A stretch of DNA of 64,000 nucleotides, from assembly GCF_009765735.1 (NCBI RefSeq), contig NZ_LMUW01000020.1, forward strand, positions 1 through 64,000. The letters are read 5' to 3'. This document shows, piece after piece, positions 16,089 to 28,727 of the stretch (position 1 is the first letter of the stretch; every line of letters begins with the position of its first letter). Under the pieces are notes generated by a model. That model searched no databases, was not told the DNA's origin, and worked only from the letters and a program-made list of their open reading frames with translations. Position numbers and translations under genes: made by a program. The DNA is from Xenophilus sp. L33 (GTDB taxonomy: Bacteria; Pseudomonadota; Gammaproteobacteria; Burkholderiales; Burkholderiaceae_C).

Positions 16089-16162
16089 GGCGGGCAATGT
16101 AGCGCCGATGCATGACGCCGGGTGTCGGGCGGCGATGGGGCCAAGGCCTAGAATCCGCCGCC

Positions 16163-18160
16163 ATGGCAAGCAAGGAACCAGGCAGTTACGGCGAATCTTC
16201 GATCCGCGTCCTCAAGGGCCTCGAGCCCGTCAAGCAGCGGCCGGGCATGTACACCCGCACCGACAACCCGCTGCACGTCATCCAGGAAGTCATCGACAAC
16301 GCGGCCGACGAGGCGCTCGCGGGCCACGGCAAGAAGATCAAGGTGGTGCTCCACGCCGACGGCTCGGTCAGCGTCGAGGACGACGGCCGCGGCATCCCGT
16401 TCGGGCTGCATCCGGAAGAGAAGGCGCCGGTGGTCGAGCTGGTCTATACCCGGCTGCACGCCGGCGGCAAGTTCGACAAGGGCTCGGGCGGCGCCTACAG
16501 CTTCTCGGGCGGCCTGCACGGCGTCGGCGTCTCGGTGACCAACGCGCTGTCGACCCGGCTCGAGGTGACGACCTACCGCGAAGGCTCGGTCGCGCAGCTC
16601 GCGTTCTCGGCCGGCGACGTGATCGAGGCGCTCAAGGTGCGGCCGCAGGAGAGCGCCGCCGCATCGAACGGCGACGGGCCGCGCGACCGCAAGCAAGGCA
16701 CCACGGTGCGGGCCTGGCCGGACCCGAAATATTTCGAGTCGGCCCAGCTGCCGATCAACGAATTGACGCACCTGCTGCGCAGCAAGGCGGTGCTGATGCC
16801 CGGCGTCACGGTGACGCTGGTGGTCGAGAAGACCAAGGACGTGCAGACCTGGCTCTATAAGGGCGGCCTGCGCGACTACCTCATGCAGACCCTCAACGGC
16901 GAGCCGGTGATCCCGCTCTTCGAGGGCGCCGGCCATGCCGACAAGAACGCCGACAACTTCGCCGAGGGCGAGGGCGCCGAATGGTGCGTGGCCTTCACCG
17001 AAGACGGCCAGCCGGTGCGCGAGAGCTACGTCAACCTGATCCCGACCAGCGCCGGCGGCACCCACGAGAGCGGCCTGCGCGACGGCCTCTTCACCGCGGT
17101 GAAGGGCTTCATCGAGCTGCATTCGCTGCTGCCCAAGGGCGTCAAGCTGCTGCCGGAGGACGTCTTCGCGCGGGCTTCCTACGTGCTGTCGGCCAAGGTG
17201 CTCGACCCGCAGTTCCAGGGCCAGATCAAGGAACGGCTGAATTCACGCGACGCGGTGCGGCTGGTGTCCAGCTTCGTGCGGCCGGCGCTGGAGCTGTGGC
17301 TCAACCAGCACGTCGACTACGGCCGCAAGCTCGCCGAGCTGGCGATCAAGGCGGCGCAGACGCGGCAGAAGGCCGGCCAGAAGGTCGAGAAGCGCAAGGG
17401 CTCCGGCGTGGCGGTGCTGCCGGGCAAGCTGACCGACTGCGAGAGCAAGGACACGGCCCACAACGAGGTCTTCCTGGTCGAGGGCGACTCGGCCGGCGGC
17501 AGCGCCAAGATGGGCCGCGACAAGGAAAGCCAGGCGATCCTGCCGCTGCGCGGCAAGGTGCTCAACACCTGGGAGGTGGAACGCGACCGGCTCTTCGCCA
17601 ACACCGAGATCCACGACATTTCGGTGGCGGTCGGCATCGATCCGCACGGGCCGAACGACACGCCCGACATGAGCGGCCTGCGCTACGGCAAGGTCTGCAT
17701 CCTGAGCGATGCCGACGTCGACGGCTCGCACATCCAGGTGCTGCTGCTGACGCTGTTCTTCCGCCATTTCCCGAAGCTGATCGAGGCCGGCCACGTCTAC
17801 GTGGCCAAGCCGCCGCTGTTCCGGGTCGATGCGCCGGCGCGCGGCAAGAAGCCGGCTTCGAAGGTCTATGCGCTGGACGAGGGCGAGCTGGTCGCGATCC
17901 TCGACAAGCTGCGCAAGGACGGCGTGCGCGAAGGCGCCTGGAGCATCAGCCGCTTCAAGGGCCTGGGCGAGATGAACGCCGAGCAGCTGTGGGAGACCAC
18001 GCTCAACCCCGACACCCGGCGCCTGCTGCAGGTGCGCCTCGGCCGCTTCGACAACCTCGGCACCGAGGGCGAGATCACCAAGCTGATGGGCAAGGGCGAG
18101 GCGGCGGCGCGGCGCGAGCTGATGGAGCTGCGTGCGGACGATGTCGAAATCGACGTTTGA
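16163..18160 (+). CDS. parE: DNA topoisomerase IV subunit B
   Basis: A 665-residue ATPase subunit of topoisomerase IV, which decatenates chromosomes. The GHKL ATPase domain has EVIDNAADEALAGHG (Glu42, Asn46), DDGRGIPFG and SGGLHGVGVSVTNALS. The TOPRIM domain has VEGDSAGGSAKMGRD, PLRGKVLNTWE and LSDADVDGSHIQ; the last segment ends in SRFKGLGEMN. I assign ParE over GyrB from length and from the linked parC. The ATG at 16163 gives the family-like MASKEPGSYGESSIRVLKGL start. Confidence 0.95.
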   Translation: MASKEPGSYGESSIRVLKGLEPVKQRPGMYTRTDNPLHVIQEVIDNAADEALAGHGKKIKVVLHADGSVSVEDDGRGIPFGLHPEEKAPVVELVYTRLHAGGKFDKGSGGAYSFSGGLHGVGVSVTNALSTRLEVTTYREGSVAQLAFSAGDVIEALKVRPQESAAASNGDGPRDRKQGTTVRAWPDPKYFESAQLPINELTHLLRSKAVLMPGVTVTLVVEKTKDVQTWLYKGGLRDYLMQTLNGEPVIPLFEGAGHADKNADNFAEGEGAEWCVAFTEDGQPVRESYVNLIPTSAGGTHESGLRDGLFTAVKGFIELHSLLPKGVKLLPEDVFARASYVLSAKVLDPQFQGQIKERLNSRDAVRLVSSFVRPALELWLNQHVDYGRKLAELAIKAAQTRQKAGQKVEKRKGSGVAVLPGKLTDCESKDTAHNEVFLVEGDSAGGSAKMGRDKESQAILPLRGKVLNTWEVERDRLFANTEIHDISVAVGIDPHGPNDTPDMSGLRYGKVCILSDADVDGSHIQVLLLTLFFRHFPKLIEAGHVYVAKPPLFRVDAPARGKKPASKVYALDEGELVAILDKLRKDGVREGAWSISRFKGLGEMNAEQLWETTLNPDTRRLLQVRLGRFDNLGTEGEITKLMGKGEAAARRELMELRADDVEIDV

Positions 18161-18185
18161 GCATTCGCCGGCGCGCCGGTGATGG

Positions 18186-19058
18186 ATGCCGATGCGGACG
18201 AAGGCCTGCCTGTCGAGCCTGCTCGTGGCGCTGGCGCTGGCGCTGCCCGCGTTCGCGCGGGCGGCCGACATCTACGGCTACGTCGACGCCAACGGCTCCG
18301 CGCATTTCGCCTCCGAGAAGATCGACGAGCGCTACCGCCTCTTCTTTCGCAACGGGCAGAGCTTCGACACCGCCAACGGCGTCGCCACGATGCTGCGCGG
18401 GCGCAAGGGCGGCCCGGTGCCGCAGGCCTCGCAGACGCTGCTGGCGCTGTTCGAGGCCTCGCCCAGCTACAAGCCGGCCAAGGCGGCGCTGCGCGACGCG
18501 GCGCACCGCGAGGACATCGACTACGAACTGCTGCAGGCGCTGGTGGCGACCGAATCGGGCTTCGATGCGCAGGCGGTGTCGCCCAAGGGCGCGCTCGGGC
18601 TGATGCAGGTGCTGCCGACCACCGCGCAGCGCTACGGCGTGGCGGCGGACAAGCGCGGGACGATCGAGACGAAACTGTTCGATCCGCGCATCAACATCGC
18701 AACCGGCACGCGCTACCTGCGCGACCTGATCGCGATGTTCCCGGGCCGCATCGAGCTGGCGCTGGCCGCCTACAACGCCGGCGAGGGCGCGGTGCAGCGC
18801 GCCGGCAACCGGATTCCGGACTACCGCGAAACCCAGGACTACGTGGCCACCGTGCTGCAGCTCTACGCGTATCTCAAGCCCAGCGTGGTCGCCGGCGGCG
18901 GCCGCGGCAAGCCGGGGCCGCGCATCCACATGGAAATGGTGGTGCCGCAGGGCATCGACACCGGACGTGGCAACATGCCGCCGGTGGATACCGGCGTGCC
19001 CTCGATTCCGCCCTTCCAGCCGAACGCCGTGCCGCCGGCATCGGCCGCGCCGCCCTGA
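18186..19058 (+). CDS. Lytic transglycosylase (SLT domain) with DUF4124-like N-terminus
   Basis: A 290-residue exported murein lytic transglycosylase that cleaves MurNAc-GlcNAc bonds. After a Sec signal peptide (about 1-27) comes a DUF4124-like beta segment (YGYVDANGSAHFASEKIDERY). The SLT domain (about 108-225) has catalytic Glu123 in VATESGFD, then GALGLMQVLPTTA and ALAAYNAGEGAV. The Pro-rich C-terminus looks flexible. It sits between parE and parC, 25 bases after parE and 87 before parC. Confidence 0.93.
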   Translation: MPMRTKACLSSLLVALALALPAFARAADIYGYVDANGSAHFASEKIDERYRLFFRNGQSFDTANGVATMLRGRKGGPVPQASQTLLALFEASPSYKPAKAALRDAAHREDIDYELLQALVATESGFDAQAVSPKGALGLMQVLPTTAQRYGVAADKRGTIETKLFDPRINIATGTRYLRDLIAMFPGRIELALAAYNAGEGAVQRAGNRIPDYRETQDYVATVLQLYAYLKPSVVAGGGRGKPGPRIHMEMVVPQGIDTGRGNMPPVDTGVPSIPPFQPNAVPPASAAPP

Positions 19059-19145
19059 GCACCGCCGGCCGCTGAACGCACAGACACCGGCCGGGCGCAG
19101 AGGCTGCGCGGCGGTCGACCTCATTCATTTCATCTCTTCATTTCC

Positions 19146-21530
19146 ATGGACACCCAACCTTCGCTCGACCTGCAGCCCCCCGACGACGACGGCGCGCTGA
19201 CCCTGGCCGACTACGCGCAGACCGCTTACCTCGAATACGCGCTCAGCGTGGTCAAGGGTCGCGCGCTGCCGGACGTCAGCGACGGCCAGAAGCCGGTGCA
19301 GCGGCGCATCCTCTATTCGATGTCGCGCATGGGGCTCGGCTTCGGCGGCGCCAACGGCACCGTCGGCGCCAAGCCCGTGAAGAGCGCGCGCGTGGTCGGC
19401 GACGTGCTCGGCCGCTTCCATCCCCACAGCGACCAGGCCGCCTACGACGCGCTGGTGCGCATGGCGCAGGACTTCTCGCAGCGCTATCCGCTGGTCGACG
19501 GCCAGGGCAACTTCGGCAGCCGCGACGGCGACGGCGCGGCGGCGATGCGCTACACCGAAGCGCGGCTGGCCCGCATCACGAGCCTGCTGCTCGACGAGAT
19601 CGACGAAGGCACGGTCGACTTCATTCCCAACTACGACGGCTCGACCGAGGAGCCGCGCCTCCTGCCCGCGCGGCTGCCCTTCACCTTGCTCAATGGCGCC
19701 AGCGGCATCGCGGTGGGCCTGGCGACCGAGATCCCGAGCCACAACCTGCGCGAGATCGCCGATGCCTGCGTGGCGCTGATCAAGGCCAACGGCAAGCTCG
19801 ACGACGAGCAACTGCTGGCGCTGGTGCCCGGGCCGGACTATCCGGGCGGCGCGCAGATCATCAGCCCGGCGGCCGACATCGCGGAGGCCTATCGCACCGG
19901 CCGCGGCTCGCTCAAGGTGAGGGCACGCTGGAAGATCGAGGACCTGGCGCGCGGCCAGTGGCAGCTGGTGGTCAACGAGCTGCCGCCGGGCGTCAGCTCG
20001 CAGAAGGTGCTGGAGGAAATCGAGGAGCTCACCAACCCGAAGATCCGCGCCGGCAAGAAGGCGCTCAGCGCCGAGCAGACGCAGCTCAAGGCCTCGGTGC
20101 TGTCGATGCTGGACGTGGTGCGCGACGAGTCGAGCAAGGACGCCGCGGTGCGGCTGGTCTTCGAGCCCAAGACCTCGCGCATCAGCCAGGACGAGTTCAG
20201 CACGATGCTGCTGTCGCAGACCTCCCTGGAGAGCTCGTCGTCGATCAACCTGACGATGGTCGGCATCGACGGCAAGCCGACCCAGAAGTCGCTCAGGCAG
20301 ATGCTCAACGAGTGGATCGCGTTTCGCGAGATCACGGTCGAGAAGCGCTCGCGGCATCGCCTGGGCAAGGTGCAGGACCGCATCCACATCCTCGAAGGGC
20401 GGCAGCTGGTGCTGCTCAACATCGACGAGGTGATCGCGATCATCCGCGCGGCCGAGGATCCGAAGGCGGCGCTGATCGCGCGCTTCGACCTGAGCGAGCG
20501 GCAGGCCGAGGACATCCTGGAGATCCGGCTGCGGCAGCTGGCCCGGCTGGAGGCGATCAAGATCGAGCAGGAGCTGAAGAACCTGCGCGAGGAACAGAAG
20601 AAGCTCGAGGACATCCTGGGCAGCCCGGCGGCGCTCCGCCGCCTGCTGGTCAAGGAGATCGAGGCCGATGCCAAGACCTTCGAGGACCCGCGCCGCACGC
20701 TGATCCAGGCCGAGAAGCGGGCGGTCGCCGAAGTGCGGGTGGTCGACGAGCCGGTCACCGTGATCGTGTCGCAGAAGGGCTGGGTCCGCACGCAGAAGGG
20801 CTGGGCCAGCGAGCGCGCCCCCGGCGCGGCCGCGCCGGAATACAGCTTCAAGTCGGGCGATGCGCTCTACCAGGCCTTCGAATGCCGGTCGGTCGACGTG
20901 CTGCTGGTCTTCGGCAGCGCCAAGGACAAGGGCGTGCGGGTCTACAGCGTGCCCGTGGCCTCGTTGCCGGGTGGCCGCGGCGACGGCCAGCCGGTGACCA
21001 CGCTGATCGACCTCGACAGCGGCACCCACGTGACCCACTACTTCGCCGGGCCGCCGGCGGCGACGCTGCTCCTGGCCAGCAGCGGCGGCTACGGCTTCAT
21101 CGCCGCGGTCGAGCACATGGTCTCGCGCCAGCGCGGCGGCAAGGCCTTCGTCGACGTCGGCGAGGGCGAGCAGCTGTGCCGGCCGTCGCTGGTGGGCTGG
21201 GCCGGCGGCGCCGAGCCGCTGCCGATGGCCACGCACGTGGCCTGCGCATCGACCGGCGGCCGCATCCTGACCTTCGAGATCGGCGAACTGAAGACGCTGC
21301 CCAAGGGCGGCCGCGGGCTGACGCTGATCGACCTCGAGGCCAAGGACACGCTGGCAGGGGCCGCCGCCTACACCCGCAGCGTGCGCATCGAAGGCATCGG
21401 CCGCGGCGGCAAGGAGCGCGAGGAGACGCTGGAGATCCGCACGCTCAACAATGCACGCGGCGCGCGGGCGCGCAAGGGCAAGGCAGCCGACCTCGGCTTC
21501 AAGCCGGGCAGCGTCACCCGCGTGCTCTAA
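19146..21530 (+). CDS. parC: DNA topoisomerase IV subunit A
   Basis: A 794-residue cleavage subunit of topoisomerase IV. The winged-helix/tower region has GLKPVQRR-type sequence ([15 protein letters not shown]) and the active-site Tyr136 in [11 protein letters not shown]. The C-terminal beta-pinwheel has repeated blades (for example [12 protein letters not shown]-like [14 protein letters not shown]). The quinolone-determining loop reads [11 protein letters not shown] (92-102), so the positions equal to E. coli Ser80 and Glu84 are Gln97 and Asp101. Pairing with parE nearby supports ParC over GyrA. Confidence 0.95.
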
Positions 21531-21544
21531 GACGGAGACCGCGC

Positions 21545-21730
21545 ATGGAAGTCGGGATCATCGGTATCGTCGTGGCGGTCTTGAGCGGTCTCGGCAGCTT
21601 CCTGCTGACCCGCTGGCTGTCCAGGCGCAGCCGCCACAAGCAGATGATGAAGATGCGCGCCGCGGCCGAGGCCTCTCAGAGCAGGCAGGTGCGGCGCGCC
21701 CGGGAACGGCAACGAAAGGACCCGCCATGA
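21545..21730 (+). CDS. Small single-pass membrane protein
   Basis: A 61-residue protein with one N-terminal hydrophobic helix (VGIIGIVVAVLSGLGSFLL, about 3-21) followed by a very basic cytoplasmic tail (RWLSRRSRHKQMMKMR...). It has no recognised family. It starts 14 bases after parC and its stop overlaps the ATG of the DJ-1 gene (ATGA, 21727-21730), which supports it being real and translated with its neighbours. Confidence 0.65.
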   Translation: MEVGIIGIVVAVLSGLGSFLLTRWLSRRSRHKQMMKMRAAAEASQSRQVRRARERQRKDPP

Positions 21731-22353
21731 ACTTCGGAATCCTTGTGTTCGACGACGTCGAGGAGCTCGACTTCGTCGGCCCATGGGAAATGCTCACCAT
21801 GTGGCAGAAGACCGCGAGCGGCAGCGCCAACTGCCTGATCGTGGCCGAGAAGAAGCAGCCGGTGCGCTGCGCCAAGGGCCTGTCGATCAACCCGCACGTG
21901 GGCTTCGACGACTGCCCGCCGCTGGACGTGCTGCTTGTGCCGGGCGGGCAGGGCACGCGGCGCGAGGTGTCGAACCCCGTGCTGGTCGACTGGGTGGCGA
22001 AGCAGGCTGCCGGCTGCCAGGCGGTGCTGTCGGTCTGCACCGGCGCCTTCGTGCTGCATGCGGCGGGGCTGCTGGGCGGCAAGAAGGCGACGACGCATTG
22101 GGGCAGTCTCGACCGCCTGCGGGCACTCGGCGACGTCGAGGTGGTCGAGGAGCGCTTCGTGCGCGACGGCAAGGTCTGGAGCTCCGCGGGCGTGTCGGCC
22201 GGCATCGACCTGATGCTGGCCTTCATCGCCGACCTGGCGGGCGAGGACGCGGCCGGCAAGGCGCAGTTCTTCTCGGAGTATTTCCCGTCGGCGGCGCGCT
22301 ACGGCAACTACGAGGCGCATGACGAGGCGCCGGCGTACCTGCGCCAGCGGTAG
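21727..22353 (+). CDS. DJ-1/PfpI family protein (isonitrile-hydratase-like)
   Basis: A 208-residue flavodoxin-like protein of the DJ-1/PfpI superfamily. The nucleophile-elbow Cys104 lies in LSVCTGAFVLHAAGLL and the N-terminal acidic residues in FDDVEELDFVGPWE. KKATTHWGSLDRL and SSAGVSAGIDLML match the isonitrile hydratase/AraC-N-terminal-like branch. The exact reaction is unknown. It is translationally coupled to the small membrane protein upstream. Confidence 0.9.
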   Translation: MNFGILVFDDVEELDFVGPWEMLTMWQKTASGSANCLIVAEKKQPVRCAKGLSINPHVGFDDCPPLDVLLVPGGQGTRREVSNPVLVDWVAKQAAGCQAVLSVCTGAFVLHAAGLLGGKKATTHWGSLDRLRALGDVEVVEERFVRDGKVWSSAGVSAGIDLMLAFIADLAGEDAAGKAQFFSEYFPSAARYGNYEAHDEAPAYLRQR

Positions 22354-22408
22354 CGCTTCACGGGAAGCGCGACCAGGTCCTTACCAACGAAGCGCGAAAG
22401 GAATGCGG

Positions 22409-23209
22409 ATGAACAAGCGATCTGTCTACGAGCCGGACCAGGCCGGACTTCATTTCCCGAGCCCGCCGGTCTTCGCCACGCCGGCGGAGGAGCGCCTGCA
22501 TCGCAAGCAGAGACTGGCGGCGGCCTGCCGCGTCTTCGCCCGCTATCGCTACGAATACGGTTTCGCGGGCCACATCACCGTGCGGGATCCCGAGCATCCC
22601 CATCTCTACTGGACGAATCCGTTCGCGATGGACTTCGGCAGGGTCCGGGTGTCGGACCTGCTGCTGGTCGATCGCACCGGCATCGTCCGCGAAGGCACCT
22701 GGGCGGTGAACCGCGCCGGATTCGTCCTGCACGCGGCCATCCACGAAGCCAACCCGCACGTGCTCGCCTCCTGCCATGCGCACACGACGAACGGCATGGC
22801 CTGGGCCGCCCTGGGCCGCAAGCTCGATCCGATCACGCAGACCGCCGCCAGCTTCTATAGCGATCACGCGCTGATCAGCGAGCAGGCCGGCGCCGTGGTG
22901 GTCGAGCGCGACGCCGGGCACGAGGTGGCCGCGGTGTTCGGCGAGAACAAGATCGTGATCCATCAGAACCACGGCTTGTTCTCGGCGGGCCGCGAGAGCG
23001 TCGACGAAGCCGCCTGGTGGTTCATCGCGGCGGAGCGCGCCTGCGAGATCCAGCTGAAGGCCGAGGCGACCGGGCATCCGCTGAAGCTCATCAGCCCGGA
23101 GGCCGCCGAGCATTCGTCCCGGCACCTGGGCACGCCCTTCTCCGCGTGGCTGCATTTCCAGCCGATCTACGACGCCATCTGCCGCAGCGACCCCGATCTC
23201 TTCGACTGA
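22409..23209 (+). CDS. Class II aldolase/adducin family protein
   Basis: A 266-residue zinc enzyme of the class II aldolase/adducin fold. Metal ligands are visible as His123 and His125 in ASCHAHTTNGMAW and His188 in IHQNHGLFSAG. The family includes sugar-phosphate aldolases, epimerases and the CloR/NovR oxygenases; the substrate here cannot be told. Two ATGs, 22403 and 22409, are possible; I prefer the second because AAGGA is then correctly spaced. It is convergent with the LysR gene. Confidence 0.88.
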   Translation: MNKRSVYEPDQAGLHFPSPPVFATPAEERLHRKQRLAAACRVFARYRYEYGFAGHITVRDPEHPHLYWTNPFAMDFGRVRVSDLLLVDRTGIVREGTWAVNRAGFVLHAAIHEANPHVLASCHAHTTNGMAWAALGRKLDPITQTAASFYSDHALISEQAGAVVVERDAGHEVAAVFGENKIVIHQNHGLFSAGRESVDEAAWWFIAAERACEIQLKAEATGHPLKLISPEAAEHSSRHLGTPFSAWLHFQPIYDAICRSDPDLFD

Positions 23210-23262
23210 AGAGGCGCAAGCGCCGGCGTGCCTCGCGTTCGCGAGCGTCCGAGCCCGCGGCA

Positions 23263-24156
23263 TCAACCCGGCGCGCCCGCCAGCAACTGCGCCAGCATCC
23301 GGCGCGCATTCAAGGGCAGCGTCTCGCCGGGCCGCACGCAGGCCAGCAAGTGCCGCTCGGCCCACGGCTCGGCCAGCGCGATGCGCACCAGCCGCATCGA
23401 TTTCGCGAAGCGCTCGGCCGCGGCGCGCGGCACGATGCCGATCCCGATGCCTTGCTCGACCATGCGGGCGATCGCCTCGAAGCCGCCGACCCGCACCCGC
23501 ACGCGCAGGCGCTGGCCGAGCCGCTGCGCCTGCAGCGCGATGTGGGCCTGCAGCGGATTGGCCGCGGCGAGGCCGACGAATTCGAAGCCGGCCAACTCGG
23601 CCAGCGTGAGACGCCGCCGCCGCGCCAGCGCATGGCCGCGCGGCACCACCACGACCAGCTCGTCGCGCCGGAAGACGGCGCATTGCAGGCCGTCGACCGC
23701 CACCGCGTCCGAGACGATGCCGATGTCGCAGTGGCCGGCCCGCAGCGCGTCGACGATGTCGTCGCTGGGGCGCTCCTCGAGGTCGACCGACACCTTCGGG
23801 TGAGCGGCCAGGAATTCGCCGAGCGCCTCGGGCAGGTGCTCGGTCATGGCGGAGGTATTGCACAGCAGGCGCACGTGGCCTTGCAGGCCGGCGCCGTAGT
23901 CGCCCAGGTCGCCGCGCAGGTGCTCCATCTGCTGCAGCACCAGCCGGGCGTGGTGCAGCAGGGTGCGGCCGGCCTCGGTCGGCCGCACGCCGAGCCGCTC
24001 GCGCAGGAGCAGCGGCGAGCCGAGCGCGTCTTCCATGCCGAGCACCCGCTGGCTGGCCGAGGCCAGCGTGATGTGGCTGCGCTCGGCGCCGCCGGTGATG
24101 GTGCCGGCCTCGACGATGTGCACGAAGAGCCGCAGGTCGGTGAGGTCGAATCGCAT
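23263..24156 (-). CDS. LysR family transcriptional regulator
   Basis: A 297-residue LysR regulator. The helix-turn-helix occupies about residues 3-60 (LRLFVHIVEAGTITGGAERS...) and the effector-binding domain about 90-292 (HVRLLCNTSAMTEHLPEALGEF, CDIGIVSDAV). It is divergent, by 96 bases, from the TSUP permease gene, which is the likely target, and its 3' end faces the aldolase-like gene. Confidence 0.93.
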   Translation of the reverse strand: MRFDLTDLRLFVHIVEAGTITGGAERSHITLASASQRVLGMEDALGSPLLLRERLGVRPTEAGRTLLHHARLVLQQMEHLRGDLGDYGAGLQGHVRLLCNTSAMTEHLPEALGEFLAAHPKVSVDLEERPSDDIVDALRAGHCDIGIVSDAVAVDGLQCAVFRRDELVVVVPRGHALARRRRLTLAELAGFEFVGLAAANPLQAHIALQAQRLGQRLRVRVRVGGFEAIARMVEQGIGIGIVPRAAAERFAKSMRLVRIALAEPWAERHLLACVRPGETLPLNARRMLAQLLAGAPG

Positions 24157-24252
24157 CGCGGGAAGTTAGCACGGCCAGCCTCAGGCTGGGACTGAGGCTC
24201 GCTGCGCCAATGCCCGATGGGCGGACGGCGCGCGCGGCGGCAGACTGGCGCC

Positions 24253-25032
24253 ATGAGTCCTTCCGAACTGTTCTCGAGCCACGGCGCGTTGCTGGGGCTG
24301 CTGGTGGCCGCGGTGTTCGTGCTCGCCGGGCTGGTCAAGGGCGTCATCGGGCTGGGGCTGCCGACCCTGTCGATGGCGCTGCTGGCGCTGTGGATGCCGC
24401 CGGTCGAGGCGGCGGCGCTGCTGATCGTGCCTTCGCTGGTGACCAACCTCTGGCAGCTGCAGCCGCTGGCGGGCCTCGGCGCGATGACGCGCAGGCTCGG
24501 CGGCATGCAGCTCGGCATCGTGGCGGGCACGCTGCTCGGTGCGTGGTGCTTCGGCGCCGCCACCAGCGAAGGCGCCGCGACCTGGCTCGGCGTGGCGCTG
24601 GTGCTGTACGCGGGCTGGGGCCTGCGCGGGCGGCCGCTGCAGCTGCCACAGCCGGGGCCGCGCTGGGCCGGGCCGCTGGTCGGCGTGGCGACCGGCGGGG
24701 TCACCGCGCTGACCGGCGTCTTCGTGCTGCCGGCAGTGGTCTACCTGCAGGCGCTGGGGCTGTCGCGCGACGGCCTGATCCAGGCGATGGGGCTGTCGTT
24801 CACCACCTCGACGATCGCACTGGGCATCGCGCTGGCGGGGCAGCAGGGCCTGTCGACGCCCTTGCTCGGCACCTCGGTCGCGATGCTGCTGCCGGCGCTG
24901 GCCGGCATGGCGCTCGGGCAATGGCTGCGCCAGCGCATGTCGGTGCGGGTCTTCCGGCGCTGCTTCTTCGTCGGGCTGGGCCTGCTGGGCGCCTACATGG
25001 CGTGGCGAGGCATAGGCCATATGCACCATTGA
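24253..25032 (+). CDS. TSUP family (TauE/SafE) membrane transporter
   Basis: A 259-residue polytopic protein with about eight hydrophobic helices in two repeats. Each repeat starts with the TSUP glycine motif: LAGLVKGVIGLGLPTLSMALL at the N-terminus and GVATGGVTALTGVFVLPAVVYL in the middle. The family exports sulfite, sulfoacetate and other anions. The ATG at 24253 puts the first helix close to the N-terminus. It is divergent from the LysR gene, its probable regulator. Confidence 0.9.
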   Translation: MSPSELFSSHGALLGLLVAAVFVLAGLVKGVIGLGLPTLSMALLALWMPPVEAAALLIVPSLVTNLWQLQPLAGLGAMTRRLGGMQLGIVAGTLLGAWCFGAATSEGAATWLGVALVLYAGWGLRGRPLQLPQPGPRWAGPLVGVATGGVTALTGVFVLPAVVYLQALGLSRDGLIQAMGLSFTTSTIALGIALAGQQGLSTPLLGTSVAMLLPALAGMALGQWLRQRMSVRVFRRCFFVGLGLLGAYMAWRGIGHMHH

Positions 25033-25082
25033 TGCGCATCGGCGGGCATGAAATATTGCCCGTCGAAAGGCGAGACACGTGG

Positions 25083-28000
25083 ATGGATGAGACCCTGCAG
25101 AAACTGGTCGCCGAGCGTCGGCGCGCACTCCATGGCGACAGCGACGACGCGAGCGGCAGGCGGCCCTGGGGCCTGGCACTCTCCGGCGGCGGCATCCGCA
25201 GCGCGACCTTCTGCCTCGGGCTGCTCAAGGCGCTGGCGGGCCATCGGCAACTGCTCAAGTTCGACCTGGTCTCGACCGTCTCCGGAGGCGGCTACGTGGG
25301 CGCCGCGCTGGGCCGGCTGTGCACGCAGGCCGAGAGCGCCGACGAGGTCCGCGCGATCGAGGCCGCGATCGCCGACGTCGACCGGGCCCGCTTCGGCTGG
25401 TGGCTGCGCGGCAACGGCCGCTACCTGATCCCGGGCGGTCCGCGCGACATGCTGTTCGCCGGTGCCCTCTACCTGCGCAACCTGTTCGCCACGCACATCG
25501 AATTGGCGATCGCCGCCAGCCTGATCGGCATGGTGCTGGCGGCGACCAACCTGCTGCTGTGGGACGCGGTGTTCCGCGCGGTCGACCTCAACAGCATCCC
25601 GCCCGACACGGTCAGCACCGTGACCGAGCTGACCGGCGTGCAGTCGCTGCGCAACCTGGTCGAATGGGCCACCCGATGGCCGACGCTCTGGTTCACGCTG
25701 GTCGGGCCCTTCCTGGCGTCGGTGATGCTGGCCTCGGCCTACTGGGTGGTGCGGGACCGGCGCTCGGATGTGTCGCTCTGGCTGCAGATGGGGATGTGGC
25801 TCGCACTCGGCGCCGGCGCCTGCTGGGTCGGGCCGATGCTGCTGGAGCGCTTCAGCGGACCGGCCTGGCTGGTGCCGGCCTTCCTGGTCTTCGCGGCTTG
25901 CTGGGTGGTCGCGCTCGGCTGGGTGCTGGTGCGAAGCCGCAGCCGCACGCCGGCCGAGCTGCGCAACGAACTGACCGACCAGCTCGCCGCGGTGATCCGC
26001 AGCGCGCTGCTCATCGTGGCGCTCGGCCTGCTCGATCGCAGCGCCTGGTGGCTGGCCGCTGAGCAGCGCCAGCTGCGGGTGTCGGTCGGTGCGGTGCTGC
26101 TGGTGTCGGCGGCGGTGCTGCGGGCGGTGCTGCCGCTGGTGATGTCGCAGCGGCGCGAGCTGCCCGGCATCGGCAAGACGCTGCTGCAGACGATGGCCAA
26201 CCTGCTCGGCCTGGTGCTGGCCTTCTGCCTGGCGGCCTGGTGGGTGTCGGTGGTGTACGCGCTGGTGCTGCTGCCGGTCTTCACGCCGGCTGGCCTGGAC
26301 TTCCTGCGCGGCTGGGCCTGGCTCGGCACGATAGCGGTGATCATCGGCACCTATGCGCTGGTGACGGGGCGCAACTTCGCCTTCATCAACGTCTCGTCGC
26401 TGCACATGTTCTACAAGGCGCGCATCGTGCGCGGCTACCTGGGCGCGGCCAACGCGACGCGGCTGGGCGCGGCGCCGACCGACCGGGTGACCGGCCTGGA
26501 CCTGCCGCAGGTGCCGGTGGGCGAGGTACATCCGAAGGACGACGTCGCCCAGCTGCGCTATGCGCCGCATGCGCACGGCGGGCCGGTGCATCTCGCCAAC
26601 GTCTGCATCAACCAGACCCACGACACGCGCGAGCGTCTCTTCAACCGCGACCGCAAGAGCCTGCCGCTGACCATCGGCCCGCGCGGCTGGATGCAGGCCG
26701 GCGGCGCGCCGTGGGCGCAGGCGAGGGGCGAGGGCGCCCTGAGCCTGGGCGCCTGGACCGCGATCTCCGGCGCCGCCTTCGCGCCGGGCCTCGGGCGCAT
26801 GACCCGGCGCGGCATCTCGGCGCTGTCGGTGTTCGCGGGGCTGCGGCTGGGCTACTGGTGGAACAGCGCCGAGGCCGGCATCGTCCAGCGCGGCGCGGTG
26901 GTTCAGGCGAACCCGCTCCTGATGAAGACCCGCTTCCTGCTGCTGGAGTGCTTCGGCGCCTTTCCGGGCAGCAGCTCGGCCAACTGGTACCTGAGCGACG
27001 GCGGCCACTTCGAGAACACTGGTGCCTATGCGTTGGTGCGGCAGGAGGCCGAGCTGATCGTGATCGCCGATTGCGGCGCCGATCCGGACTACCGCTTCTG
27101 CGACCTGGAGATCCTGATCCGGCGCGCCCGTATCGACCTGCATGCCGAGATCACCTTCATGAAGCCGCGTCCGGGCGCGACCTGGGCGCACCTCGAATCC
27201 TTCGGCTCGCTCGACGACCTGGCCTCGCCGAGCAGCCAGGCCTGCCTGGCGCTCGCCGAGGTGGTGTATGCCAGCGGCGCGACCGGGCAGATCGTGCTGG
27301 TGAAGCCGAACGTCTCGGCCTCGCTGCCGGTCGACCTGGTGAACTTCAAGGCGGCGCATCCGCTCTTTCCGCAGCAGCCGACCACCGACCAGTTCTTCGA
27401 CGAGGCGCAGTGGGAGAGCTACTTCCGCCTCGGCGCCGAGATCGGCCGCCGGCTGGAGGACGAGATGCTGGCGCACGTGGCGCAAGGCGCGCCCGGCCTC
27501 TTCGTGCGCGACGACGGCCGGCCGAGTGCGAGCGCCCATCCGGCCAGCGCGACGCTCACCGTCAGCACCGGCGACAAGGACGACGCCACCGCGGCCGCGG
27601 TCGGCTCGATGAGCCGGCTGCAGGCGCGGGTGCTGAAGTTCGGCGCGGTGACCGCCTCGATCGGCATCGGCACCGCGGCCACCTTCGGCGTCGCCGCCTG
27701 GCAGGGCATCGACAGCTGGCGCAGCCAGGCGGCCGCAACGCAGGCCTCGGAAGACAGCTCCTTCAAGGAACTGAGCGAACGCTGGGCCCACCTGAAGGCC
27801 GGCACCGACACCAGCGACGCGCCGGCTCTGCTAGCGGCCGAGCTGCTGCGCACCGGCGACCTCCTGTGCCGCAAGGGCAGCGACAACTTCATGACCCGCT
27901 TCCGGCTCTCGGTGACGATCGTCGACGACGCCAAGGAGGCCTGCAGCGACCAGGCGGCCGCCGACCGCAGCCCGGCCTGCGTCCGGCTGCTCGACCCGGG

Positions 28001-28610
28001 CAACGGCATCGACTGCCTGCAGCCTGCACCGGCGGTGCCCTGCGCGCCGCGCTACTGGGCGCGCGACTACAGCGAGCAGACCGGCTCGAAGGAGAACTGC
28101 AGCGGCACCTTGCCGACGCCCTGGCCGCTGGTTGTGTGGCTCAACGACTTCGTGATGACGCGGGTCGACGCGCACCGGATCGCGGTGGCGCAGCGTGCGA
28201 ACGATGCGGTGGCCGCCGGTGCGGGCGCGAGCCTCGCGGCACCGGCGCCGCCGCCAGCGCGCGTCTGCGAGGACGCGGTGGTCTACATCGTCATCTACGG
28301 CACGACGCTGCGCGACAAGGCGCGCGCCTGGCGCGGGCCGTGGCGCCGGCTGGGCGCCTCGGTGCCGCCGATCGAGGACGTGCTCGCCACCGCGCGGCTG
28401 GCGGGCCGCTCGCCGCCGATCGGCCATGCCGAGCCGACCGTGGTGATCCGCTCGGACGCCTCGCGCGCCTGCGCGCAGGCCATGATCCAGGTCGCGCCGT
28501 CGCCGACCGGCCAGCCGTGGACCCTCGAGCAGCTGCCCCGCACCGTCGGCGCCGAGCCCGGCGCCATCGAGGTCTGGCTGCCGCGCAGCAAGGACACGAG
28601 CGCGGATTGA
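25083..28610 (+). CDS. Large membrane-embedded patatin-like phospholipase
   Basis: An 1175-residue protein. The patatin oxyanion loop LALSGGGIRSATF (about 31-43) and nucleophile Ser67 (STVSGGGYVG) are at the N-terminus, and the DGG motif with Asp639 (WYLSDGGHFENTG) lies about 570 residues later. About eight hydrophobic helices lie between them (roughly 150-440), so the catalytic domain is interrupted by a membrane block. A further hydrophobic segment (FGAVTASIGIGTAATFGVAAW, about 853-873) precedes a Cys-rich C-terminal domain. The predicted reaction is lipid acyl hydrolysis at the membrane. The ATG at 25083 has AAGGCGAG upstream; an ATG at 25032 overlapping the permease stop is an alternative. 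Confidence 0.85.
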   Translation: MDETLQKLVAERRRALHGDSDDASGRRPWGLALSGGGIRSATFCLGLLKALAGHRQLLKFDLVSTVSGGGYVGAALGRLCTQAESADEVRAIEAAIADVDRARFGWWLRGNGRYLIPGGPRDMLFAGALYLRNLFATHIELAIAASLIGMVLAATNLLLWDAVFRAVDLNSIPPDTVSTVTELTGVQSLRNLVEWATRWPTLWFTLVGPFLASVMLASAYWVVRDRRSDVSLWLQMGMWLALGAGACWVGPMLLERFSGPAWLVPAFLVFAACWVVALGWVLVRSRSRTPAELRNELTDQLAAVIRSALLIVALGLLDRSAWWLAAEQRQLRVSVGAVLLVSAAVLRAVLPLVMSQRRELPGIGKTLLQTMANLLGLVLAFCLAAWWVSVVYALVLLPVFTPAGLDFLRGWAWLGTIAVIIGTYALVTGRNFAFINVSSLHMFYKARIVRGYLGAANATRLGAAPTDRVTGLDLPQVPVGEVHPKDDVAQLRYAPHAHGGPVHLANVCINQTHDTRERLFNRDRKSLPLTIGPRGWMQAGGAPWAQARGEGALSLGAWTAISGAAFAPGLGRMTRRGISALSVFAGLRLGYWWNSAEAGIVQRGAVVQANPLLMKTRFLLLECFGAFPGSSSANWYLSDGGHFENTGAYALVRQEAELIVIADCGADPDYRFCDLEILIRRARIDLHAEITFMKPRPGATWAHLESFGSLDDLASPSSQACLALAEVVYASGATGQIVLVKPNVSASLPVDLVNFKAAHPLFPQQPTTDQFFDEAQWESYFRLGAEIGRRLEDEMLAHVAQGAPGLFVRDDGRPSASAHPASATLTVSTGDKDDATAAAVGSMSRLQARVLKFGAVTASIGIGTAATFGVAAWQGIDSWRSQAAATQASEDSSFKELSERWAHLKAGTDTSDAPALLAAELLRTGDLLCRKGSDNFMTRFRLSVTIVDDAKEACSDQAAADRSPACVRLLDPGNGIDCLQPAPAVPCAPRYWARDYSEQTGSKENCSGTLPTPWPLVVWLNDFVMTRVDAHRIAVAQRANDAVAAGAGASLAAPAPPPARVCEDAVVYIVIYGTTLRDKARAWRGPWRRLGASVPPIEDVLATARLAGRSPPIGHAEPTVVIRSDASRACAQAMIQVAPSPTGQPWTLEQLPRTVGAEPGAIEVWLPRSKDTSAD

Positions 28611-28651
28611 CGAGGCCCGCGAGCCTGTTGGGGTAATTGCCGGGGTGTTTT

Positions 28652-28667
28652 CTGAAACCGGTTTCAG
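28652..28667. promoter_or_regulatory. Perfect 16-bp palindrome, probable LacI-family operator
   Basis: CTGAAACCGGTTTCAG is a perfect inverted repeat with the central CCGG typical of LacI/GalR-family operators. It lies 60 bases upstream of the ABC importer gene and is followed at once by TATCAT (28668-28673), a possible -10 box, so bound repressor would block RNA polymerase. The LacI-family gene at the end of the same operon is the obvious candidate regulator. Confidence 0.78.
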
Positions 28668-28727
28668 TATCATCGCGGCCGATGTCTTTTCCGACCCGCT
28701 CCACGGCCCTTTCACCCGCCTGACCCC

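Follow-up and report, generated by a model that had tools for sequence, protein, structure and literature searches.

The gene at 25083–28610 of a 64,000-nucleotide stretch of DNA from Xenophilus sp. L33 (contig NZ_LMUW01000020.1, positions 1 to 64,000; hereafter the window) encodes a 1175-residue membrane protein with a patatin fold. Judging by its predicted structure, the protein seems to be a novel arrangement of a known kind of enzyme, in which a patatin/cPLA2 catalytic fold is interrupted by a membrane domain of its own. We consider it probable that the protein is a lipid acyl hydrolase, polytopic in the inner membrane, that would act on the cell's own lipids at the cytoplasmic face and would be tuned by its tail. 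The gene was identified from its open reading frame (ORF), its translation, and a Pfam Patatin match above the cut-off, and it lies, with all of its features given below, on the plus strand. A preliminary description of this stretch had placed the nucleophile and the catalytic aspartate about 570 residues apart, with membrane helices between them and a Cys-rich tail. We count 572 residues between Ser67 (in STVSGGG; 25281–25283) and Asp639 (in DGG; 26997–26999), eight helices in between, and a ninth helix followed by a tail with eight cysteines. The reading frame and the ATG at 25083 also agree with that description. An alternative in-frame ATG is present at 25032, and many close orthologues begin about three codons downstream of the ATG at 25083. 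The source genome is GC-rich, and the GC content of the window is 64–73% in 2-kb steps.

Two sets of homologues were assembled. When 200 genomes of the same family were searched with the whole protein, 43 gave a match, the protein's own genome included; the match exceeded 100 bits in 34 of the 43, and the rest were mostly the short patatin motif alone. Thirty-one loci were matched, including the window protein itself (L001) and two that lacked a start (L022 and L026), so that 28 relatives were aligned with it. Scanning a single genome from each species yielded at least 578 encoding stretches. The best 79 of these all come from Proteobacteria, except for one from Acidobacteria and two from Verrucomicrobia-type bins, and the closest named homologues are from Variovorax, at 76–77% identity. 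From the scan, we built a set of 76 proteins, with 54 long members and 22 tail-less ones, excluding L076, L082, L095, L099, and the truncated L112 because the N-terminus was incomplete or a stop was missing.

The catalytic residues do not vary in either set. Ser67, Gly68–70, and Asp639-Gly-Gly-His642 are invariant in all 29 aligned proteins of the whole-protein search, and Ser67, Gly68, Gly69, and Asp639 are invariant in 76/76 proteins of the larger set, which derives from a scan with two seeds, one of them a DGGHF pattern. Given this invariance, the layout of the catalytic motifs is not a product of chance. The SGGGIR oxyanion-hole motif (residues 34–39; 25182–25199) has Ser34, Gly35–37, and Arg39 in 76/76, with a GGGxR motif having been demanded at the choice of start codon in both sets. 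Residues outside the catalytic motifs are also invariant: N436, Y444, R447, H503, N510, W558, E622, R680, and D685. Pfam Patatin (PF01734) recognizes residues 31–119 alone, with an E value of 2.1e-9 and 38.3 bits against a gathering cut-off of 27.7, over profile positions 1–93 of 191. This match falls in the N-terminal catalytic half (residues 1–120; 25083–25442), which also matches, with an E value of 5.8e-9, the profile of seven compact patatins that the same genome encodes. The C-terminal catalytic half (residues 431–800; 26373–27482) holds most of the invariant columns. Its profile, made from 38 of the 76 C halves (alignment A6), aligns the DGG of Asp639 with that of the same seven patatins at an E value of 4.5e-4 and a probability of 33. 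General patatin motifs are covered in part of PMC12871566.

The nucleophile elbow lacks the first Gly of G-x-S-x-G, as the preliminary description had pointed out for STVSGG. The residue two positions before Ser67 is Thr65, and this position is Thr in 74/76 and Ser in 2/76, so that the Gly is missing in 76/76. The same STVSGG elbow occurs in L144, a compact patatin of the same genome (G000:C142:219002-219667) that scores 59.8 bits over positions 1–190 of the Pfam Patatin profile. Because the rule holds throughout the set and recurs in L144, the Thr-for-Gly elbow is a subfamily trait and not decay, and it does not mark a damaged site. On these sequences, we read the first Gly of the elbow as a consensus position that is not defining for patatins. 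L144 could possibly serve as a small model for this type of elbow.

Next, we consider the predicted structure. An AlphaFold2 model of all 1175 residues, made with the 76-row alignment, has a mean predicted local distance difference test score (pLDDT) of 85.4 and a predicted template modeling score (pTM) of 0.72, and pLDDT is mostly above 90 across residues 1–810. The elbow looks as expected, with strand 62–65, Ser67, and helix 68–81, and Asp639 follows strand 634–638. The predicted fold brings the Ser67 and Asp639 halves together. Candidates from Foldseek were re-aligned against the solved structures to obtain Z scores. The best fold match for residues 1–805 is human cPLA2-delta (5izr_C), with a Z score of 27.7 and 358 aligned residues at 4.5 Å, and cPLA2-alpha (1cjy_B) matches the same residues with a Z score of 25.1. 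The Pseudomonas aeruginosa protein PlpD (5fya_A) matches model residues 27–799 with a Z score of 17.1, 234 of its 253 residues being aligned at 3.5 Å; a match this close to complete over such a span needs both halves in one domain. Other matches are CapE (9ioq; Z score of 16.8), AbCapV (9jeh_A; 16.2), patatin (15.5), iPLA2-beta (14.9), and ExoU (12.5). Residues 1–805 are thus predicted to make up a single patatin/cPLA2 domain that surrounds the helix block and in which the catalytic halves would meet. The preliminary description had proposed that the lipase active site surrounds a membrane domain of the same protein, and this idea gains from the model, in which the halves form one domain, and from the profiles of the two halves, which match the two ends of patatin, the C half weakly. 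Sequence searches of the PDB found less: a single-sequence search with the window protein gave no match, and the 76-row profile gave 197 matches up to an E value of 10 (the best at 0.023), of which the best 60 resemble chance matches to coiled coils and membrane proteins.

The membrane domain (residues 121–430; 25443–26372) was assigned from hydropathy, model helices, and the distribution of positive charge. Hydropathy of the single sequence gives six distinct peaks between Ser67 and Asp639, or seven at a lower threshold. When averaged over the 29-protein alignment, it gives eight peaks at 123–435 and a ninth at 852–873, and each of the 76 proteins has 5 to 9 hydrophobic peaks between the two catalytic residues. 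The model has helices at 120–167, 201–224, 229–257, 263–284, 290–327, 329–359, 363–395, and 407–428. Loops 2, 4, and 6, which are predicted to be cytoplasmic, are richer in Lys and Arg than loops 1, 3, 5, and 7 in 75/76 proteins; the five core stretches predicted to be cytoplasmic carry 12–21 Lys plus Arg per 100 residues, compared with 5–6 in the four outer loops. Eight helices are an even number, which puts both catalytic halves on one side of the membrane. From the eight crossings and the positive-inside loops, both halves are predicted to be cytoplasmic and the tail periplasmic.

A linker of low confidence (residues 801–852; 27483–27638) joins the core to the ninth membrane helix (residues 853–873; 27639–27701), with pLDDT below 50 at 820–823 and 826–871. 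The model does not resolve this helix because it sits in the low-confidence stretch. It was placed by homologue-averaged hydropathy, by a stretch of 19 or more uncharged residues found there in 54/54 long members, and by a Lys plus Arg content of 21 per 100 residues before it versus 13 after it. The best 19-residue hydropathy mean is 1.45 in the window protein, and among the long members it reaches at least 1.5 in 18/54 and at least 1.2 in 50/54. The ninth helix is the least certain part of the topology.

Behind this helix comes a helical Cys-rich segment, predicted to be periplasmic (residues 874–1060; 27702–28262) and seen as helical in the models. The eight tail cysteines of the window protein lie from position 929 to 1130. 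The number of tail cysteines, which ranges from 4 to 14, is even in 54/54 long members, compared with 28/54 for core residues 1–800. The even count holds among clusters at 50, 40, and 35% identity (31/31, 22/22, and 14/14), and it is found in 54/54 when the tail is started at residue 850, 875, or 890 and in 53/54 from 905. This is what disulfide pairing in an oxidizing compartment would give, and at the level of sequence we take Cys parity to be stronger support for a periplasmic tail than the ninth helix is. The tail alignment (A3) contains 51 of the 54 long tails, with L056, L060, and L061 left out. The effector-associated domain EAD5 was considered for the tail and rejected, as its E value of 0.057 is below the cut-off and it was not seen in the 10 tails scanned out of 53 homologous ones. 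Tails are missing from 22/76 members, so that core and tail are separable modules. A second family copy in the same genome, L002 (G000:C216:38897-41428), is short, tail-less, and 37% identical over query residues 9–793; together with the tail-less members, it shows that the core is a unit by itself.

In two separate models, the final 110 residues fold, mostly with good confidence, into an alpha/beta domain (residues 1061–1170; 28263–28592), with pLDDT mostly above 90, Cys1062 in 52/54 long members, and Cys1130 in 53/54. The top fold among the matches listed is the C-terminal domain of Rv0431, or VirR (2m5y), with a Z score of 6.3 over 81 residues at 2.5 Å, and for the second model it is an orthologue of Rv2700, or Cei (6q10), with a Z score of 5.3 over 91 residues at 3.8 Å; both scores are below 8 and in the range where chance is possible. 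Membership in LytR_C by sequence was rejected, as the window protein is not among the own-genome matches to Pfam LytR_C (PF13399) up to an E value of 10, and the likeness is kept as a weak fold lead. According to PMC11832169 (2025), M. tuberculosis has two solo LytR_C proteins, Rv0431 and Rv2700, and both are linked to cell-wall integrity.

Ratios of nonsynonymous to synonymous substitution rates (dN/dS) were computed against five orthologues. They are 0.16–0.31 for the catalytic halves (0.16–0.31 for residues 27–120 and 0.16–0.19 for the C-terminal half), 0.36–0.60 for the membrane block, 0.43–0.69 for residues 875–1060, and 0.33–0.72 for the C-terminal domain. The lipase family is under purifying selection, and the catalytic fold is best kept. 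Homologues are patchily spread. Within the genus, a match is present in 45 of 101 genomes, and in 43 of these the homologue is at least 60% identical. A sample of the phylum gave 31 matching genomes of 398 at 1e-20, and the phylum matches listed end before model position 860, and so are tail-less, in all but the window's own genome. Among 72,556 plasmid records, 42 match, all below 60% identity, which adds Hymenobacter and Streptomyces; homologues in these records are annotated as “patatin-like phospholipase family protein” or “hypothetical protein.” No paper on a membrane-split patatin architecture was found in the open-licence literature, and the search there turned up no well-described family with this function either, a finding that would have displaced the preliminary description. 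Patatin-like phospholipases are enriched among the orthogroups of Variovorax from the poplar endosphere according to a section of PMC12911387, which does not specify which ones.

Our proposal, then, is that residues 1–120 and 431–800 would form one cytoplasmic catalytic domain with a Ser67–Asp639 dyad, and that the inserted eight-helix domain would keep it on the inner leaflet. Since it would be held there, the enzyme would be expected to act on the phospholipids of its own cell, or on a related lipid of the membrane. The ninth helix would take a disulfide-bonded domain into the periplasm, where the tail would most likely sense or anchor to the envelope and tune the enzyme. We infer the hydrolase activity, its substrate among the cell's own inner-leaflet lipids, and the role of the tail as regulator or anchor. 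Several observations weigh against this proposal. The C half matches the patatin profile weakly, and Foldseek found no PDB entry at an E value of 0.001 or better (best 0.031). A pTM of 0.72 leaves the placement of the tail unfixed; the ninth helix falls within low-confidence residues 826–871 and is only moderately hydrophobic, and the loop after it, at 13 Lys plus Arg per 100 residues, is above the other outside loops. The gene is also dispensable in the genus, being absent from 56 of 101 genomes (50 of 87 at 90% completeness or more), and a few homologous matches, such as G276 and L031, carry one stop codon.

Among known systems, the group IV cPLA2 enzymes (5izr and 1cjy) are the best fold match, and a weak sequence-profile match to them covers profile positions 17–85 (E value of 0.047). 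In cPLA2, the catalytic Ser and Asp are also far apart in sequence, and the catalytic domain is not known to contain membrane helices. Unlike cPLA2, the window protein has a predicted periplasmic tail and shows no match to Pfam PLA2_B (PF01735) up to an E value of 10, and cPLA2 is not among the best 60 of the 197 matches to the 76-row profile. The paralogue L002 reaches an E value of 0.0023 and 16.9 bits against PLA2_B, where the cut-off is 23. PlpD, a patatin-Omp85 protein, is the closest studied analogue that we found in which patatin and membrane domains are joined. According to the sections of PMC11116518 that describe it, PlpD has a periplasmic patatin domain followed by an outer-membrane beta-barrel, and the authors infer cleavage of several phospholipids that belong to the cell itself. 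In the window protein, however, the helices are of the inner-membrane type and sit inside the catalytic domain, and the model has a helical membrane block and no barrel in place of the POTRA domain and 16-strand barrel of PlpD. CapV and CapE of the cyclic-oligonucleotide-based antiphage signaling system (CBASS) share the patatin fold, but the matched solved chains are 302–344 residues long, and no recurring cyclase or other defence partner was found for the family of the window protein.

Upstream of the gene, Pfam identifies a lytic transglycosylase (18186–19058), an aldolase-II protein, a LysR regulator, and a TauE/SafE-type permease (24217–25032, plus strand; Pfam TauE E value of 7.1e-26) that ends 50 bp before the lipase gene; downstream are an ABC permease and an ATPase. 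The six window genes scanned with Pfam besides this one are ordinary, and translations read by eye suggest parE-like, parC-like, DJ-1-like, and sugar-pathway neighbours. Among the 15 closest loci, some of them on short contigs, the TauE permease gene is found in 1/15 (L039); elsewhere it accounts for 3 of the 113 neighbours, and we treat it as a neighbour and not as an established partner. In these 15 closest loci (L033–L047; Variovorax, Xenophilus, and relatives), parC upstream or the first ABC permease downstream is present in 15/15, and both are present in 7/15, at distances that vary. Six genus genomes that lack the gene still have parC and the ABC permease near each other in 6/6, with 4.0–6.7 kb of other genes between them. 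By eye, the genes that fill this interval are lipoprotein-, hydrolase-, and isochorismatase-like. The region that separates parC from the ABC operon, which is of amino-acid type, varies across the genus (window 21531–28727). Two topoisomerase IV-type genes (by eye; window 16112–21530) flank the SLT lytic transglycosylase gene at 18186–19058, and the order parE-SLT-parC recurs in 9/15 of the closest loci.

For loci beyond the closest 15, we examined 113 immediate neighbours from 59 loci, a few of them also in Variovorax; 114 were found, and one that runs off its contig was left out. No recurrent partner gene was found among them. The commonest Pfam families occur four times each, and clustering of flanking ORFs gave recurrence mainly within the 15 closest loci, with several clusters resembling antisense or paralogue noise. 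A GMC-type oxidoreductase-like ORF (by eye) lies in the flanks of homologues L042, L047, and L079, and GMC oxidoreductase is also the annotation under one plasmid match, H5; this recurrence may be coincidence.

The preliminary description had left two target membranes, the host's own and an invading one. Action on the cell's own membrane is the natural interpretation and stands; defence against an invader found no backing in PADLOC matches, phage homologues, or recurrent partners, and a defence system was rejected as the principal explanation. We regard it as unlikely that the protein is a defence effector that, like the CBASS phospholipases, would damage the inner membrane from inside an infected cell and so kill it. 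The likeness to CapE and AbCapV, the presence in fewer than half of the genus genomes, the plasmid homologues, the variable parC-ABC interval, and the few neighbours with PADLOC matches given below would all fit such a role, but the fold scores of PlpD and cPLA2 equal or exceed those of CapE and AbCapV, and the same housekeeping genes flank the gene in the 15 closest loci. The preliminary description had proposed a search for this architecture near defence genes, and no recurrent link of that kind was found. The PADLOC scan of the 113 neighbours brought up 47 families, none of the 25 listed being in more than two proteins, and no Pfam family is in more than four. Twenty-eight larger neighbours were also scanned singly (E limit of 1e-5 in the first batch and 1e-10 in the others), and 25 gave no match; a neighbour at L070 weakly matched LmuA, one at L078 weakly matched mad8, and one at L075 (13520–15529, minus strand) is a helicase that matched the DpdF (2.5e-254, best), PsyrT, and BrxHI models together. 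The L075 helicase is probably a RecQ type over-called by the defence models; a second neighbour among the 113 also matches DpdF. One of the 113 neighbours matches the PycC cyclase model (9e-19), no cyclase family recurs, and PADLOC gave no match, whether to CD-NTase and ancillary genes or to anything else, for the window protein and two neighbours; the window protein has no NCBIfam match either. No homologue was found in phage records. The truncated homologue L112, 32% identical, lies at the end of a putatively viral contig from IMG/VR.

Other explanations keep the membrane domain and change what the enzyme does. The protein may be a transacylase or another lipid-modifying enzyme, with a special substrate such as a lipoprotein, a glycolipid, or a storage-lipid precursor bound by the membrane domain, in place of a general phospholipase. 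The invariant residues beyond the dyad (N436, Y444, R447, and others) suggest a specific pocket, and the membrane block keeps its position in 76/76. We still judge this reading rather doubtful, as no biosynthetic partner gene recurs outside the closest loci and nothing direct favours transfer over hydrolysis. Eight helices exceed what an anchor needs, and weak partial matches of the helix bundle to transporters such as AtALMT1 (7vq3_A; Z score of 7.2) could hint at a flippase-like transporter of lipids or fatty acids whose cargo the lipase acts on. This is very improbable in our view, because Z scores near 7 are expected for helical bundles by chance and, within the core, the membrane block is less well conserved than the catalytic halves. 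Least credible is a catalytically dead patatin serving as scaffold or sensor. The elbow without its first Gly is what speaks for it, but Ser and Asp are invariant in 76/76, the compact L144 has the same elbow, and the catalytic halves are the slowest-evolving parts of the protein.

To our knowledge, patatin and cPLA2 enzymes approach the membrane from outside, and here, in at least 578 bacterial encoding stretches, a membrane domain appears to split the catalytic fold itself. If the lipid acyl hydrolase activity that we favour is real, the family would give a handle on inner-membrane lipid turnover and on its possible control from the periplasm. The even number of tail cysteines in 54/54 long members is a cheap sequence signal through which the topology can be put to a direct test. 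More tentatively, the protein may be a one-protein signaling device of the inner membrane, in which a disulfide-bonded, LytR_C-like periplasmic domain would read the cell wall or envelope and switch a cPLA2-like lipase through nine helices, with the insert feeding it lipid from the bilayer. If so, bacteria would have in it a membrane-embedded counterpart to the signaling phospholipases of eukaryotes, and it may produce lipid messengers or remodel the membrane on demand.

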